Shown: piece by piece, positions 26,246-58,827 of the stretch
Layout: every line of letters begins with the position of its first letter
How positions within the stretch are numbered: position 1 is the stretch's first letter
DNA from: Methanobacteriota archaeon
GTDB taxonomy: Archaea; Halobacteriota; Methanosarcinia; Methanosarcinales; Methanosarcinaceae
DNA length: 64,000 bases
Direction: 5' to 3'
NCBI GenBank assembly: GCA_016841265.1
Contig: JAENZL010000015.1
Span: 1 to 64,000, forward strand
The notes under the pieces: model-generated
What the model saw: the letters and a program-made list of their open reading frames with translations, nothing else
Told to the model about the DNA's origin: nothing
Database searches by the model: none
Translations under genes and position numbers: made by a program

Positions 26246-27706
26246 ATGCTTACACGTGAAGAGATTCTTGAAATCTATGAAGCTGGTCCTGAAGCAGTTA
26301 TTGCTGTATTCCAGGGATATGATGCTATCATAGAGAAACAAGCTTCTCAGGTTTCTGAACTTGAAGAACGTGTAAGAGTTTTAGTGGCTCGTTTGAATCA
26401 AAATAGCCAAAACAGCAGTAAACCTCCTTCTACAGATGTTTTTTGTGGTGAGAAACCTAAACCCAAGAGTACCCGCAAGAAAAGTGGCAAAAAACCTGGT
26501 GGCCAAGAAGGTCATCCTGGAAAGACTCTTGAAATGGTTGAAAATCCTGATTAGATCATAGTCCATTCTCCGGACTGCTGCGAAAATTGTGGTCATAATA
26601 TTGAAAATACTGAAGTTCAGGATTATGAACGCAGGCAAGAATTTGAAATTCCTCCTGTGCAAATCATAGTTACTGAACATCGTTGTGAGATCAAAAAGTG
26701 CCCTCACTGCGGGAAAGTTAATAAAGGTTCTTTTCCAGACTCCATGAAATTCCCAATTCAATATGGTCCTCGTCTTTTAGCCTCAATTTTGTATTTGAGG
26801 AACTATCAATTGATTCCTTATGAGAGGACTTGTGATTTAGTAGAGGATTTCTACGGCATACGTATCAGCCCTGCTACCATAAAAAGGGCGGAAAATGAAT
26901 GTTTCCAGAACCTGGAACCTTTCGAAGAAACTGCTATGAAACATCTATTAGCGTCCCATTCTGCCCATTGCGACGAAACAGGAATGAGAGTTTTAGGGAC
27001 GAAATGGTGGCTTCATGTTGTCTCAAACAATCTATGGACCTACTATTTTCCACATCCAAAAAGAGGGTCAGAGGCAATAGATGCTCTGGGATTTCTTCCA
27101 CAATACAATGGAGTAGCAGTTCATGATGGATTTGCTTCATACAACAAGTATGAATGTGAACATGCTCTGTGCAATGCTCATCTTAAGCGGGAACTTACTG
27201 GGATTGAACAGAATTTTGAGCAACAATGGGCTAAAAACATAAATGAACTCCTCAGTGAGATGAAAAAGTATACTGATGAATGCAGAGAGATGGAAATTCC
27301 AATAGACCCGGAAAAAGTCAGGGAATTCGAGAAAGTATACGATGAAATTACTCAAGAAGGAATTGAGGAAAATCCACCTCCAGATCCACCAAAAGATCCG
27401 GTGAAAAAGAGAGGAAGAACAGCACAAACGAAAGCAAAGAATCTCCTTGATAGGTTCATACTACACAAGGAAAGGATTCTGAGATTCCTCAATGACCTGA
27501 GAGTTTCGTTTGATAACAATCAAGCAGAGCGAGACATCAGGATGATGAAGCTACAACAGAAAATTTCGGGAACTTTCCGAAGCATAGAAGGAGCGGTAGC
27601 TTTCTGCAGAATTCGGGGATACATATCCACAATTAGAAAGAATGACTTGAATGTCATGGATGCTATTCTAGCGGCGCTCAATGGAGAGCCGCTATTATCC
27701 TCATAA
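26246..27706 (+). CDS. IS66-like transposase with in-frame UAG (possible pyrrolysine)
   Basis: One frame of 487 codons is interrupted only by TAG at 26552-26554. The N-terminal part has the IS66 leader coiled coil and the NQNSQNSSKPPSTD motif with a basic stretch. After the TAG come a zinc-binding segment (CCENCGHNIEN, CEIKKCPHCGK) and the DDE catalytic core: ACDETG-like HCDETGMR (first D), AVHDGFASY (second D) and NNQAERDIRMMK (E). The frame downstream of the TAG is intact to the end, so there is no other decay. In Methanosarcina UAG can be decoded as pyrrolysine, so full-length transposase may be made; otherwise this is a single nonsense mutation. Confidence 0.85.
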
Positions 27707-39163: not shown

Positions 39164-39730
39164 GTGAAAAACATTAGATATTCAATTAAAGACTTCGTAA
39201 GTGAAACGGGAGAACGCGATCTCGGACAGGGAGTGTTCGAACTGGAACGCGACCGTTTGCTGGAAGTAAACCTTGATGGCATGGTCTGGAGCAAACGGGG
39301 TTCCATGGTAGCGTATACAGGCGGGATTAAGTTTACAAGGGAAGGAATCCTTGAGCACGGGCCTGGTAAACTCGTAAAAAAATCCCTTGCCGGAGAAGGG
39401 GTATGTCTCACAAAAGCCGAAGGCCAGGGAAAACTCTACCTGGCAGATGATGGCAAGAAAGTCTCAATCCTGAACCTTGAAGACGAGGCGATCTTCGTAA
39501 ATGGAAACGACCTCCTGGCCTTTGAATCCTCAATCAGCTGGAACATCAGGATGATAAAAAGGATTTCAGGCATGATGGCAGGAGGGCTTTTCAACGTGAA
39601 GCTCGAAGGGACCGGCATGGTCGCTATCACCACGCACCATGATCCCCTGACCCTCAAAGTAACGGGAGACTTCCCCGTATGCACTGACCCGAACGCAACG
39701 GTAGCCTGGTCAGGGAATCTGGAACGTCAA
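39164..39730 (+). pseudogene. AIM24-family gene, 5' part, interrupted by the IscB element
   Basis: This reading frame encodes about 189 residues of an AIM24 (TIGR00266/DUF124) family protein: [48 protein letters not shown] and [20 protein letters not shown]. It stops early, after the conserved [15 protein letters not shown]. The last residues before the stop at 39749-39751 come from the inserted element. The missing C-terminus is found at 41325-41449, on the far side of the IscB gene. The start may be GTG at 39164, or ATT at 39173, which has GAGGTG at correct spacing and would give an IRYSIKDF N-terminus. Confidence 0.85.
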
Positions 39731-39739
39731 CTACCCCTC

Positions 39740-40039
39740 CCTAAAATCTAAGCCTTATGGCTTAGATTTTAGAGTAAGGGGCTTGTCTAACAAGCCCTGG
39801 TTGACCAGATCCCCGATTAGGAGCTTAGGAAAATCGGGAAACGATAGGAACGAATATTAGTTACCCTGGAATGCCGCCTCAGTTTCAGGCTCTACGGAAG
39901 CAAGTTAAACAGTCCTGAGAGGTAGGGACAGTGCTTGCATCATCAAACCGTTCCATATCAGATCGAGAGGAAGCCGGAAACCGGGATTGTCTCCACTAAC
40001 CCGGCTACGCATAACCCTATTCAATAGGAGCAATTACAA
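39740..40039 (+). ncRNA. HEARO / IscB omega RNA
   Basis: About 300 bases of structured, GC-balanced sequence precede iscB. Visible stems include a perfect 12-bp hairpin CTAAAATCTAAG/CTTAGATTTTAG (39741-39752/39761-39772) and GGGCTTG/CAAGCCC (39779-39785/39791-39797). Further pairing segments are GGAAGCCGG..CCGGG and CCCTATTCAATAGG just before the start codon. HEARO RNAs lie directly upstream of IscB and carry the guide at their 5' end. If that holds here, the guide is copied from the AIM24-family sequence left of the element. Confidence 0.75.
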
Positions 40040-41323
40040 ATGTTTGTATTTGTACTCAGCAAAGAAGGAACCCCGCTCATGCCCACTAAACCGGCAAAAG
40101 CTAGGCTCTTGCTCAAAACAGGAAAGGCAAAAGTGGCCCGAACCACGCCCTTCACAATCAAGTTACTTTTCGAGAGCAGTAGCTACACTCAACCCGTAAC
40201 TGCCGGGATGGATACCGGCTCGAAAGCCGTAGGATGTGCCGCTATCGCTTCCGGGAAAGTGTTGTATCAGTCCGAGATCTACCTGAGAGAAAACGTTTCG
40301 AAAAAGATGGAACAACGGAAAATGTATCGGAGAAGCCGGAGAAGCCGGAAGACAAGATACAGGCCAGCAAGGTTCAATAACCGGGGAAATTCAAGGAGAG
40401 AAAAAAGGTTAGCTCCTTCCATCAAAAGCAAACTTGATTCTCATTACAGGGAAAAACGGTTTGTGGAATCCCTGCTCCCTGTAACGAAGTGGAAGGTCGA
40501 ACTTGCTTCCTTTGATATCCACAAAATCAAAAACCCGGAAGTTTCCGGAATTGGGTATCAGGAAGGGGACCTTAAAGGTTTCTACAATGTCAAGGCTTAC
40601 GTTCTGCACAGAGACGGGTACACCTGCCAGCATTGCAGGGGAAAGTCAAAGGATTCCCGGCTACATTGCCATCACATAGTTTTCAGGTCAAAGCAGGGGT
40701 CAGATGCTCCGGAAAACCTGATTACGCTCTGTGAAACCTGTCACAAAGCCCTGCATTCCGGGGAATTTGAGCTTTCAGGGAGAAGGTCAAACACGAAACA
40801 CGCCACAGAAATTGGCATTGTCAAGTCCCAAATCAAGAAATCCGACTGGACCTTTGAGGAAGTTTTCGGGTACGAAACAAAGTTCCGGCGAGAACAGGTT
40901 TTTGGACTCGAAAAAACGCATTATTTTGATGCGCTTGCTATCTGTTGTGGGGACAAACAAACCGTAGAACCGGATGATACGGTCTACTTCAAAAAACACG
41001 TTCCTGCGGGAGATTATCAACAACGTAGAGGGAAGAGGTCAGAGAAGAAAATACCTACCGGAAAGCTGTTTGGGCTCAGGAAATTCGATCTTGTAAAAAC
41101 AGAAAAGGGGATCGGGTTCATTCGAGGAAAACGGTCAAGCGGGTTCTTTACTTTGTGTGATATTTTTGAGAACATGATAACTACAAGTGTTAACATTAAG
41201 AGAAATTGCAGGAGACTGAGAGCGGCGTGTACAACATTAGTTCAGATGGTACAGATGACGCATTCCTCCCCCACCTGTCGGCCTGCGGCCTCCGAGGAGG
41301 GGGGCTCCTGCTTCGAGAGCTGA
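40040..41323 (+). CDS. iscB: IscB RNA-guided HNH/RuvC endonuclease
   Basis: The 427-residue protein has the N-terminal PLMP domain (FVLSKEGTPLMPTKPAKARL), then RuvC-I with D58 in AGMDTGSKAV and an arginine-rich bridge helix (MYRRSRRSRKTRYRPARF). RuvC-II has E154 in KVELASFD. The inserted HNH domain has two CxxC pairs and H211-H212, N226 and H235. RuvC-III has H294 and D297 in HYFDALAIC. All catalytic residues are present. IscB is the ancestor of Cas9 and cuts DNA matching the guide in its omega RNA. The last 40 residues are encoded by the element's right end and look non-conserved. The stop codon is the last triplet before the AIM24 sequence resumes. Confidence 0.95.
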   Translation: MFVFVLSKEGTPLMPTKPAKARLLLKTGKAKVARTTPFTIKLLFESSSYTQPVTAGMDTGSKAVGCAAIASGKVLYQSEIYLRENVSKKMEQRKMYRRSRRSRKTRYRPARFNNRGNSRREKRLAPSIKSKLDSHYREKRFVESLLPVTKWKVELASFDIHKIKNPEVSGIGYQEGDLKGFYNVKAYVLHRDGYTCQHCRGKSKDSRLHCHHIVFRSKQGSDAPENLITLCETCHKALHSGEFELSGRRSNTKHATEIGIVKSQIKKSDWTFEEVFGYETKFRREQVFGLEKTHYFDALAICCGDKQTVEPDDTVYFKKHVPAGDYQQRRGKRSEKKIPTGKLFGLRKFDLVKTEKGIGFIRGKRSSGFFTLCDIFENMITTSVNIKRNCRRLRAACTTLVQMVQMTHSSPTCRPAASEEGGSCFES

Positions 41324-54731: not shown

Positions 54732-55037
54732 AGGTATAAAAAATCTGTAAGGAATTTGAACATTGAAAAATATATTATGGCTTATCTTAGTGTATGTAAC
54801 TAAGATTCTTATTGTTAATCGTTTTGCTTACTATATAACATTATCAGTGCAATATAAAAGAATAAGTATGTAAAATGAAAATATCTAACACTAATAACTT
54901 CAGGTCACCCGCTATGTAAAACAAAAATTACGGTCCCAAAAAAACACGCAAAACCGTTACAATAAAAAAAAAGATAGTTCAAAAAAACCAATATGAAGGA
55001 AATACTTAATTAGAAAGTTTACATATTAAAAAGGGTA

Positions 55038-55111
55038 TGGGCCCGCTGAGATTCGAACTCAGGATCCCCGCCGTGTAAAGGCGATGTCATAACCGTCTAG
55101 ACCACGAGCCC
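55038..55111 (-). tRNA. tRNA-Val (anticodon TAC)
   Basis: The reverse strand folds as a complete cloverleaf. The acceptor stem is GGGCTCG/CGGGCCC with an A discriminator (CCA not encoded). The anticodon stem-loop TCGCC-TTTACAC-GGCGG has anticodon TAC, and the T-loop is GTTCGAAT. A possible TATA (TTATATATAT, 55174-55183) lies about 60 bases upstream. Confidence 0.96.
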
Positions 55112-55427
55112 ATCTGGAATGTGAATCATTTTCGGAAGATAACTCCTCAAATGCAACTCCAAAATGTCATTAGTTATATATATGTGTTTTGATAGCCACG
55201 CACCACAGGTAAAATTAATTTAGATATAGTCAGGTATCAAACTTATTGATCCTAAAAAGATTAAAATGTAAGTCCTGAAAAAATATTTGAAAAAAAATTC
55301 AGCATATTAAAGTCAGAAAAGTCTATTTTTTCCAGCAGATAAAGTCAGAAAAGTCTATTTTTTCCAGCAGAAATTGATATTAGAAATTGATATTATGTAT
55401 TCAATCGACCTCAGCTTTTAAACCATA

Positions 55428-55440
55428 ATATATTTATATC
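55428..55440 (+). promoter_or_regulatory. TATA box of candidate small RNA A
   Basis: AATATATTTATAT is an archaeal TATA element centred about 28 bases before the GTGAGCGG stem of RNA A. Equivalent boxes precede RNA B (ACTATATATATG, 56041-56052) and RNA C (GTATTTATAAG, 56609-56619) at the same distance. Confidence 0.6.
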
Positions 55441-55462: not shown

Positions 55463-55537
55463 GTGAGCGGGTCTCTTATTTTGTAAGATAACCCCAACCC
55501 CCCAACACCCCCAATTCATACTCCCCAACCCGCTCAC
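55463..55537 (+). ncRNA. candidate small RNA A of a three-member tandem family
   Basis: GTGAGCGGG (55463-55471) pairs with CCCGCTCAC (55529-55537). Inside are a small hairpin TCTTA-TTTTG-TAAGA (55474-55488) and a single-stranded cytosine-rich tract (55490-55528) with CCCCAACCCCCCAACACCCC. A TATA box lies 28 bases upstream. No open reading frame is present. The closing stem, inner hairpin position and C-rich loop recur in RNA B and, without the inner hairpin, in RNA C. The C-tracts suit pairing with G-rich ribosome binding sites. Confidence 0.75.
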
Positions 55538-56071
55538 ACTGATTATTATTACGGAAAAAAACCTTGTTCTTCATAAAATACTTTTTACCATAGCCTATTT
55601 TGCACATGTACTATCGGACTACATGTCTTTTTGCAATTATCGGGCATCATTTTGTTTCCTCACTATTCGCCCTTACTATTTGTCCAGACTATTTGCCCTG
55701 CTATTCGTCCTTAAAATTTATCCGGATATATAGCTTTAAACATTCCCGGCGTATTACACACTTTTACATACCTTTTACCACTCCTTGCGTGTTTTCTGCT
55801 TGACGGATCTGGTGAACACAGGATTACGTGCCCTACAGAATTTCATAAAGACCGTGGGAAAGGCATGTTACAGAAGATGAATAAATATAGAAAATTATAT
55901 ATACATTAATTCAGGACTGCCAGTCCCATCAACAGGAAATTTTACATGGGATCGCCTTAAAAAGAGCTCATGAAAACCGGAATTTCATAAATATTCGATA
56001 TATCACCATCTAGTATAAATCAAGGCGTATATTTCAGAAAACTATATATATGATGTGACATTATTGAAGAT

Positions 56072-56165
56072 TTAGTGAGCGGGTCTGTTTTTACAGTATA
56101 ACCCCCAACTCATATCCCCCAACTATTCCCCAACTATTCCCCCAAACACCAAATCCGCTCACTAA
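56072..56165 (+). ncRNA. candidate small RNA B of the tandem family
   Basis: TTAGTGAGCGG (56072-56082) pairs with CCGCTCACTAA (56155-56165), an 11-bp stem. An inner CTGT-TTTT-ACAG hairpin (56086-56097) is followed by a C-rich loop with ACCCCCAACT, ATCCCCCAACT and repeated TATTCCCCAAC. A TATA box lies at 56041-56052. The stem core GTGAGCGG is identical to RNA A and RNA C while the loops differ. Confidence 0.75.
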
Positions 56166-56640
56166 TCCCTTTCATTTCTTTCCATCAGTCACAAATCTCT
56201 TCTTCGTGCACCGTTTCTTCGTTTTTATCTCCCTGACCCCTCTTTCACTTTATCCCTTGTATTTCCCTGTTTTGCCCTTATACTCACATCATTAGCCACG
56301 TTCGATTTCTGAATATTTTCCAGACCGCTCCTCGGAATTATTCATTTGCAACTATCCAAATCCTGGAGAATTCTTCAAAAACAATTCATTAAAACCGACC
56401 TCAGGGTTATCCGCCATTTTGCAAAACTCCGCACTTTTACAGGTCTTGCCCACATAAGAAACGGAAAAAATACTCCCGTAGCCCCTTCCTTTCAGGAGTG
56501 CACGGTTATTTCCCCCGGGTTTTAAAACGACTCCTGTAAAATATAATTCAACTAAGTATACAATACATTATCTCTATGACAAAAAATATTTTATAATGCA
56601 TAAAAAAAGTATTTATAAGTCAATTTTGATATACCTTATT

Positions 56641-56720
56641 AGTGAGCGGAAAACATACCCCCACCCCCAAAAATTCCCCAAACTTCTTCTTTTAAGTCAA
56701 CCCCAAAAAATCCGCTCACT
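56641..56720 (+). ncRNA. candidate small RNA C of the tandem family
   Basis: AGTGAGCGGA (56641-56650) pairs with TCCGCTCACT (56711-56720). The loop contains ATACCCCCACCCCC, TTCCCCAAA and CAACCCC; the inner hairpin of A and B is missing. A TATA element (GTATTTATAAG) lies at the standard distance. ATACCCCC is an exact complement of GGGGGTAT, which occurs at the ribosome binding sites of cdc48, the winged-helix gene and mscS. Confidence 0.75.
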
Positions 56721-56985: not shown

Positions 56986-58827
56986 TTAAAAATCAAAAAG
57001 CGTTTTCTGAGTTTTTTGTTCAGGTTTTTTTGGTTCCCCTTTAGATTCAGCTGATTCTTCCGAAGAGACAGGATCTAAGGGAAGGTTTTCTTCCTGAAGT
57101 TCTTCTGCTGGCACCTCGGCAGGCACCTTTGATGGCACTTCTACTGGTACTTCGGAGGGCATCTCTGCAGGCACCTCTGATGGCACTTCTACTGGTACTT
57201 CGGAGGGCATCTCTGCGGGCACTTCTACTGGTAACTCTGAGGGTACCTCTGATTCAATTTTACCTGACTTCGTCTCAATATCCTGAATACTATCAAACCC
57301 AAAATCCAATGTTCTTTGCTTTCTATCCGAACTGACGGGAGCCGTTGTTTCGGTTATTTCAGTTGTTTCGGTTATTTCAGTTGTTTCGGAAGAAACAGCC
57401 TCCTTTCCGGACATTTCGGCTTCGGAAAAGAAACCGGGAGTTTTTAGTTTGGTTCCGGCAGGCCTGGATGCAGGGTTTTTTTGCCGGCCTCCTGCGGTAA
57501 CCGGGAGTTTGAAGAACTCAGCTTCTTCCCGGCCCCCGGCTGCTACCTGCAGTTCACGGGCGTCATCGTAAATTTTCTGGAGCTTCTTGTTTGCTTTTTT
57601 ACTTCCGGTAAGATACATCAGTTCTTCTAGTTCAAGGCCAAGCCCGGCAGTCACGTCCACGGCAGAGGCTTCGTCGTTTACCATCCTGGTATAAAGCCCT
57701 AGCAGGTTGCTTCTGGAATAGTGCATGGACTCCTGGCAGTGTTCCCCTATCTTCGAAGCGATATTGTCCCGCATGTTCCTGGTCGCCCGGGTCTGTCCGA
57801 GTCGCCTCCAGACCGAAGGCTGCTGGTACTTGATAAAGCCCCTGTAAGGCTTCGACTTTGCAAGGGAAGTCCCGCAAACCATGAGCGTGCTGGCATACCT
57901 CCACATCCGGTAGTTCTGGCGTTTCTTTACACGCCCAAGGTATAGGTCGGCTTTTGAGAGGTAGCTGTAACCTACCCTGATATCTTCAAGGTCCCCACCT
58001 TCTCCCGCGTACTGGACAGGCAGGTTCTCATCAATCCAGTGCACCAGGTCTTCGGGGCTCTCATCAAGCCCGTATGTGGCTTCAAGGGCTTTTTTCAGGT
58101 CCGTGCTCTTGAAGATCTTCTGCATCGCTTTGAAAATGTTCTCCTTTACGTCCCGCTCGCCTGTGCTGACGTCCCGGGCTTCGATAATCTCCCTGCCGCT
58201 TGCCGCGGCCTGGAGGTCGTTTACGGCACTGCGCAGGTCTCCTCCGGCATTTTCCGCAATCTTCAGGACAGCCTCGGGGCTGCACTGAAGCCCCTCCCCA
58301 TCACAGATATTTCTCAGGGCAGGGACAATGGACCGGCTCTGGACGCCCAGGAACTTGATTTCCAGGCAGAGGTTCCGGATCGTCGGGGTGAGCCCGTAGA
58401 GGTCATTTGCAATAAGCACAATCGGCTGCTGCGTATTCTTAATTATCCCCGAGACCGCCCGCATCCCGCCGCGGTCCGAGCTCCCGTGGATATTGTCCGC
58501 TTCGTCCAGGATGATCAGGCGCTTTCCCCCGAAAAGAGAGTTCATGGAAGCCGCAGATCCCGCAACCTTCTCGATCACACCTGCCGTTCTCTGGTCGCTC
58601 GCATTAAGCTCGATCGCCTCCCAGCCAAAGTCCCGGGCAAGGGCATGGGCGCTGGAAGTCTTCCCTATCCCTGCAGGCCCGTACAGGATCACAGCCCTCT
58701 TCTCAGGGGTGCCCTCTAGCCACTCCTCAGACCAGCTCCGGAAATCATGCACTGCCTTCTTATTCCCCACGACATCCGCGAGGGTCCGGGGGCGGTATTT
58801 TTCAGCCCATTCGATTGCTGCCGTCAT
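56986..58827 (-). CDS. rfcL: replication factor C large subunit
   Basis: The 613-residue protein is the archaeal clamp-loader large subunit. It has the RFC box [10 protein letters not shown], Walker A GPAGIGKT (residues 50-57), Walker [10 protein letters not shown] and the [10 protein letters not shown] sensor-2 region. With RfcS it opens and loads PCNA on DNA. The C-terminal 170 residues are low-complexity, with Thr/Glu and Val-Pro repeats ([10 protein letters not shown]). They include a PIP-like QRTLDFGF and a terminal PIP box QKTLFDF for PCNA binding. Length is somewhat above the family norm because of the repeat region. Confidence 0.96.

Follow-up and report, generated by a model that had tools for sequence, protein, structure and literature searches.

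To our knowledge, few archaeal small RNAs are known beyond one genus. In bacteria, the protein-titrating RNAs CsrB and RsmZ carry GGA motifs in hairpins, which are bound by CsrA. Methanosarcina mazei sRNA41, the RNA of Buddeweg et al. 2018 (cited in PMC5867862), is described as C-rich in an earlier note on the DNA considered here, and reportedly acts at ribosome binding sites. A total of 199 trans-encoded sRNAs have been reported for M. mazei Go1 (PMC3432209), and nine conserved cold-induced sRNAs with a 'cold box' have been described in Methanolobus psychrophilus (PMC5378194).

The locus compared here with these systems lies in a window (i.e. the whole stretch of DNA that was analysed) of 64,000 nucleotides. 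The earlier note had proposed that three tandem units between tRNA-Val and rfcL, each with a TATA box, a shared terminal stem of 9-11 bp and a C-rich loop, and none with an ORF, are small RNA genes. The tRNA-Val–rfcL interval does hold three plus-strand units, e1, e2 and e3, at the positions given in that note, with the following features:

55037-55112, minus strand: tRNA-Val(TAC), the left neighbour of the array, kept in Methanosarcina and in the window's genus
55431-55439, plus strand: TATA box of e1, TATTTATAT, at -32..-24 from the stem
55463-55537, plus strand: RNA element e1 (model R1, 63.6 bits), with closing stem GTGAGCGGGT/ACCCGCTCAC, a U-tract and a loop with four C-tracts
56043-56051, plus strand: TATA box of e2, TATATATAT, at -32..-24 from the stem
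56075-56162, plus strand: RNA element e2 (model R1, 49.9 bits), with closing stem GTGAGCGG/CCGCTCAC lengthened by flanking TTA/TAA
56610-56618, plus strand: TATA box of e3, TATTTATAA, at -32..-24 from the stem
56642-56719, plus strand: RNA element e3 (model R1, 43.7 bits), with closing stem GTGAGCGGA/TCCGCTCAC and C-tracts
56986-58827, minus strand: rfcL (clamp loader large subunit; Pfam AAA/RFC lid), the convergent right neighbour

The spacing between TATA-like box and stem is thus identical in all three units. The stems are of 11 bp in e1 (UGUGAGCGGGU/ACCCGCUCACA) and e2 (UUAGUGAGCGG/CCGCUCACUAA) and of 10 bp in e3 (AGUGAGCGGA/UCCGCUCACU), and RNA folding z-scores are -5.1, -5.7 and -5.6, respectively, with none of 200 shuffles folding equally well. 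The four C-tracts in the e1 loop are CCCC, CCCCCC, CCCCC and CCCC; the e2 loop contains repeated CCCCAACTATT units, with one additional unit in its ortholog in another genome (G002), and e2 also holds a small CTGT-TTTT-ACAG hairpin. In e3, the most diverged copy, a U-rich stretch lies within a weak ACTT..AAGT hairpin. The same genome has a fourth paralog, e4, beyond the window, at G000:C2:48803-48875 on the minus strand; the set thus extends further than the tandem array.

Several other features of this DNA were observed. Two tandem duplications occupy 55308-55394, just upstream of e1: a perfect one of 32 nt (TAAAGTCAGAAAAGTCTATTTTTTCCAGCAGA x2) and, after it, one of 13 nt (55369-55394). The C-terminal part of rfcL (57090-57260, minus strand) encodes a degenerate EVPxEVPxEMPSEVP repeat. 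C-rich tandem repeats of ~60 nt, containing CATCCAATCCTTAACCTCCCCACCTATATCCAACCTGCCTCCCC, occur ~500 nt from the e4 gene (L001 660-1020, contig C2 of the same genome). Elsewhere in the window, a HEARO RNA (RF02033, 112 bits; 39726-39978, plus strand) lies directly upstream of an ORF (40040-41323, plus strand) for 427 aa with an HNH-like CxxC...HHI motif, a pair that looks like an IscB-type RNA-guided nuclease locus; a transposase gene (26246-27706, plus strand) is read as two ORFs, with PYLIS_6 (RF02513, 26552-26651) spanning the break, and is probably one gene with an in-frame UAG and a pyrrolysine insertion element.

In the common plan of the wider family to which these units belong, a C-rich loop almost devoid of G (median G content 2.7% for 81 distinct elements) is closed by a GTGAGCGG/CCGCTCAC stem. 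A U-tract of at least four U is present in 79 of the 81, and a 13-nt loop core, ACCCCCACUCCCC (ACCCCCACTCCCC), nearly invariant across the family, is exact in 43 of them; e1-e3 keep the U- and C-tracts without the exact core spacing. The shortest forms, of 48-53 nt, found in genus g14 and in ANME-2 records, read GTGAGCGGG..U5..AACCCCCACUCCCCAACCCGCUCAC, and C-tract units multiply by tandem duplication, e.g. AATTCATACTCCCC x3 and CCCCAACTATT x3. In an alignment of 89 matches, 98.2% of stem cells are paired and double changes occur in seven of the nine stem pairs; the 55 double-change cells, as against 10.4 in shuffles (none of 500 reaching 55) and 0-3 in slid controls, are to be read as counts and not as probabilities, since the alignment was fitted to the model and its rows are related, five being opposite-strand duplicates of others. 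The compensated pair types are recognisable by eye, and include GTGAGCGGG/CCCGCTCAC, ATGAGCGGG/CCCGCTCAT, ACGAGCGGG/CCCGCTCGT, GCGAGCGGG/CCCGCTCGC, TTGCGCGGG/CCCGCGCAA and GTGGGCAGG/CCTGCCCAC. At many Methanolobus and Methanomethylovorans e4 loci (e.g. L032, L017, L015) a GGGG/GGGA run, absent from the Methanosarcina loci, follows 8-20 nt 3' of the stem; this run might be a leader motif, or else base-pair with the C-tracts.

The family is carried by all four genomes of the window's genus. When 84,980 bacterial and archaeal species genomes were scanned with a 19-mer taken from the 3' half, ACTCCCCAACCCGCTCACA, 50 stretches were obtained, in records named as Methanosarcina, Methanolobus, Methanomethylovorans, Methanococcoides, Methanosalsum, ANME-2 and Methanosarcinales/Methanosarcinaceae, with a few matches in records titled Euryarchaeota only. 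A covariance model built from 30 elements, with the 9-bp closing stem as its sole structure, matched 102 of 112 genomes of the taxonomic family (85 of the 86 good ones) and 217 of 238 genomes of the class (147 of the 151 good ones), at 1-14 copies each; in a phylum-wide draw 83 of 84 class members had matches, and the search of ~310 genomes of the phylum outside the class returned none. Conservation in genus and class, with no match among those ~310, excludes a chance origin. When 15 unmatched class genomes were searched again more sensitively, three gained matches at E ~0.001 or better, the small genomes of genera g5 and g7 gave none, and family f6 gave matches at chance level only. We infer that the class is Methanosarcinia, that f7, which is more distant, is the Methanothrix family and that f5 is the Methanoperedens group. 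One f5 genome (G181; L106, L114) has 14 copies, several of them paired or in threes within ~1 kb and most with the stem GTGGGCAGG/CCTGCCCAC, and genomes matching Methanolobus have 2-4 copies each. It is thus very highly probable that e1-e3 are members of a small RNA family present throughout the class Methanosarcinia; the earlier note was right about the three units, and its own refuting condition, a lack of the paired stem and C-rich loop in related genomes, does not hold. Not noticed there were the spread through the class, the fourth paralog and the 48-53 nt form, which occurs in many relatives.

Sequence identity falls sharply at the boundaries of the elements. e1 is 88-99% identical in relatives (88-96% relative to other Methanosarcina), with flanks at ~50-60% between genera; for e2 and e4, identity between the window's genus and other Methanosarcina is 83-86% and 99-100%, respectively, with e4 flanks at 46-62%. 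The 60 nt on the 3' side have ~46-57% identity and the 5' side has ~60%, part of which is the TATA box. Since conservation stops at the stem, stem and loop together make up the functional unit, and the earlier suggestion that the loop is the active part is in keeping with a near-invariant loop core between flanks at background. e3 is the least constrained copy, present in all four genomes of the genus and, weakly, in two of the neighbouring genus (L126, L144).

The order tRNA-Val, e1, e2, (e3), rfcL is kept in the window's genus and in Methanosarcina, such that the array is common to two genera of Methanosarcina-like genomes. An element adjoins rfcL at 17 loci (in Methanosarcina, Methanolobus, Methanomethylovorans and genus g14), and is convergent with it in Methanolobus-like (L129, L130, L142), Methanomethylovorans-like (L131) and g14 (L019, L031, L039, L040) loci; with this convergent neighbour conserved across the Methanosarcinaceae, the position beside rfcL is old within that taxonomic family. 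The proposal in the earlier note of expansion by tandem duplication holds for the shared array, and independent tandem pairs are present in L131, next to rfcL, and in L136, at a different site, but it does not cover e4. Orthologs of e4 lie beside sua5 and mnhG in Methanolobus, and in Methanosarcina their neighbours are MFS or H+-pyrophosphatase genes; the RNA is thus not tied to one gene as its leader. A mobile element inserting at varying, unrelated sites was considered and rejected, given the conserved tRNA-Val/rfcL neighbourhood and the absence of copies from the viral contigs searched with two core patterns.

The stem is an inverted repeat with GTGAGCGG on both strands and does not, therefore, alone give the strand. 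TWTAWA boxes at -44..-22 are present on the C-rich strand at 65 of 83 loci and on the other strand at 14 of 83; they centre near -28, and the A-rich stretch immediately upstream is what a BRE would look like. On the C-rich strand there are 13 G-U cells to 3 A-C cells (opposite-strand rows excluded), about half of the 13 being one terminal pair that is mostly inherited. Together, the TATA boxes and G-U pairs argue for an RNA read from the C-rich strand, and disfavour one read from the G-rich strand. The placement of the TATA boxes suggests that transcription would begin with the first base of the stem or one adjacent to it.

For a family observed with this structure, strand, promoter, spread and constraint, we propose that e1-e3 would be separate small noncoding RNA genes, each read from the C-rich strand under a TATA promoter of its own. 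The predicted transcript would start at or next to the stem, be of 48-104 nt, and have its ends paired in the GC-rich stem, which would hold open a nearly G-free single-stranded loop with a U-tract (U4-6) and C-tracts including the core ACCCCCACUCCCC. The loop may be a sequence-specific binding platform for one or more putative RNA-binding proteins. The RNAs would then work in trans, either by the logic of CsrB, as a decoy titrating a protein, or as the RNA component of a small RNP, and the number of binding sites would be tuned through tandem copies and additional C-tract units. Protein binding is the simplest proposal for a core that is invariant, unpaired and almost free of G, in RNAs with C-tract units that duplicate. 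We consider it quite possible, and tentatively prefer, that the C/U-tract loop RNA is such a trans-acting platform or decoy. Two observations speak against this reading: a classical multivalent decoy would have more C-tracts than the 2-3 seen in most of the class-wide forms, and the e1-e3 paralogs have divergent loop cores.

Loops rich in C and free of G would be just as typical of antisense sRNAs, which also counts against a protein-binding platform. It is possible, if rather doubtful, that the family comprises trans-acting antisense sRNAs, the C-rich loops of which would block translation by pairing with start codons or with ribosome binding sites that are G-rich, using short or species-specific seeds; the nearly G-free and unstructured loops would suit this role, for which PMC5867862 provides M. 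mazei precedents in sRNA41 and loop 2 of sRNA154. Complementarity was analysed in one Methanosarcina genome (G079; 2.48 of 3.28 Mb, ~75%), with a crude prediction of starts that gave 1831 in the 2.4 Mb continuous part. At positions -22..-1 of these starts, complementarity to the e1, e2, e4 and core loops was not above that to shuffled loops, and for e4 and e2 it was below that of most shuffles, whereas enrichment was clear for an anti-SD control; the deficit may be due to selection against chance pairing with an RNA that is abundant. Outside the family's own genes there is a single match of at least 15 nt, a perfect 15-nt complement of the G079 e2 loop in the start region of an ornithine cyclodeaminase/mu-crystallin family gene; this candidate target was rejected, since 2-3 mismatches are present at the orthologous Methanosarcina starts recovered by pattern search, even though the e2 loop is conserved. 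For the invariant core, where the loop is most conserved, the 2.4 Mb contain no 14-nt complement besides the gene itself, complementarity of the loops to the ACDS gene starts of one genome is unremarkable, and pairing of the core with rRNA is no better than for shuffles. Short seeds would escape these pairing tests. The null ribosome binding site, ACDS and rRNA results argue against a shared role in masking ribosome binding sites and leave protein binding as the simplest explanation; the sRNA41-like mechanism raised in the earlier note is likewise disfavoured, with loops unenriched for ribosome binding site complementarity and the best target not conserved. As a separate observation, the leader of the G079 ornithine cyclodeaminase family gene (L165, ~30 nt upstream of the start at 401439, minus strand) contains a small hairpin, GTGAGCCAGCTCAC, the GTGAGC/GCTCAC halves of which are those of the RNA stem. 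The rRNA result also bears on the improbable reading that the RNA is a structural or housekeeping component acting on a core machine, e.g. the ribosome, RNA polymerase or replisome, and 6S RNA-like in logic. Its presence in nearly every genome of the class, usually in several copies, its near-invariant core and its conserved convergent neighbour rfcL would fit with such a role; it is, however, missing from the small genomes of g5 and g7, a range of 1-14 copies is unusual for a core RNP, and neighbourhood alone is no proof of function.

The remaining readings dispense with a trans-acting RNA. In 80 of the 91 listed elements the first stem codon, at the expected transcript start, is GTG, ATG or TTG, a curious feature given that this group has leaderless transcripts, and one that is probably a by-product of the stem sequence. 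It raises the very improbable alternative of an mRNA, leaderless or with a short leader, that would encode a tiny peptide beginning in the stem (GTG/ATG AGC GGG, i.e. MSG...); sRNAs of M. mazei can indeed contain small leaderless ORFs (PMC11456600). Open frames from the first stem base run, however, to only 7, 8 and 17 codons in e1, e2 and e3, as anticipated by the earlier note's claim that no ORF is present, and to 3-60 codons across the family, with a stop at codon 4 in 20 of the 91; the first codon can also be ACG or GCG, matched by changes in the 3' half of the stem. A protein-coding small ORF was rejected because the reading frame is not conserved, and the TATA boxes, the G-U pairs and indels not divisible by three (orthologs differ in length by 1-2 nt) indicate a noncoding RNA. 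It is extremely improbable that the conserved entity is a DNA element, either a G-quadruplex on the G-rich strand or an inverted-repeat protein operator, in the absence of a functional RNA: four C-tracts of at least four C are present in all four paralogs of the window's genome, but most relatives have only 1-3, so that a quadruplex (or i-motif) is rejected as a conserved feature, and a DNA element is further disfavoured by G-U pairs, most of which are allowed when the C-rich strand is read as the RNA, and by the regularly spaced TATA boxes on that strand. An equally remote prospect is a cis-acting, riboswitch-like leader or a terminator of a neighbouring gene, for which a GGGG or GGAG motif after the stem in some Methanolobus loci might be cited; the next downstream gene in the window, rfcL, is convergent, the identity and orientation of the downstream gene vary among relatives, and conservation ends at the stem.

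With regard to precedent for the preferred protein-binding RNA family, Rfam release 15 has no family at its gathering threshold for these elements, the best E-values (1.5) being those of chance; in a test for C/D box RNAs, e1-e3 lack CTGA and no family scored above threshold. Within the literature covered, searches by sequence strings or by C-rich/sRNA terms gave no match. The literature searched appears to contain no earlier description of the family as a whole, of its distribution through the class or of its covarying stem, and single members may already be among the published M. mazei sRNAs. The family is absent from Rfam and has a near-invariant core, stem covariation and clean promoters; the ancient, almost unchanged loop points to an important RNA-based function, and the family is present in almost all genomes of a class with a central place in biological methanogenesis and in the anaerobic oxidation of methane. 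Methanosarcina being genetically tractable, with some four loci to delete, the family offers a testable entry to RNA-based regulation, and its RNA could serve as bait for an archaeal C/U-tract RNA-binding protein.

Comparison with known systems reveals likenesses to, and differences from, each. Like the cold-induced sRNAs of M. psychrophilus, with which it was compared by description rather than by sequence, the family comprises small RNAs of a genus that carries it. As described in PMC5867862, sRNA41 is, like the family members, an intergenic Methanosarcina small RNA, and acts in trans, as is proposed for the family (again a comparison by description, not sequence), and sRNA154 is a conserved, structured sRNA with single-stranded loops as its active parts. 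By contrast, the reported ACDS/ribosome binding site targeting of sRNA41 is not reproduced by the family loops and, according to the same source, sRNA154 is conserved in Methanosarcina and has two stem loops, whereas the present family is class-wide and has one closing stem. With CsrB/RsmZ, the family shares the features of multi-copy small RNAs with repeated short single-stranded motifs that vary in number, and it is conceivable by this analogy, though unlikely, that the multi-copy C-tract RNAs titrate a dedicated C/U-tract-binding protein, so constituting a CsrB-like decoy family of methanogenic and methane-oxidising Archaea. The motif in the archaeal family is, however, a C/U-tract within one large loop, rather than GGA in hairpins.
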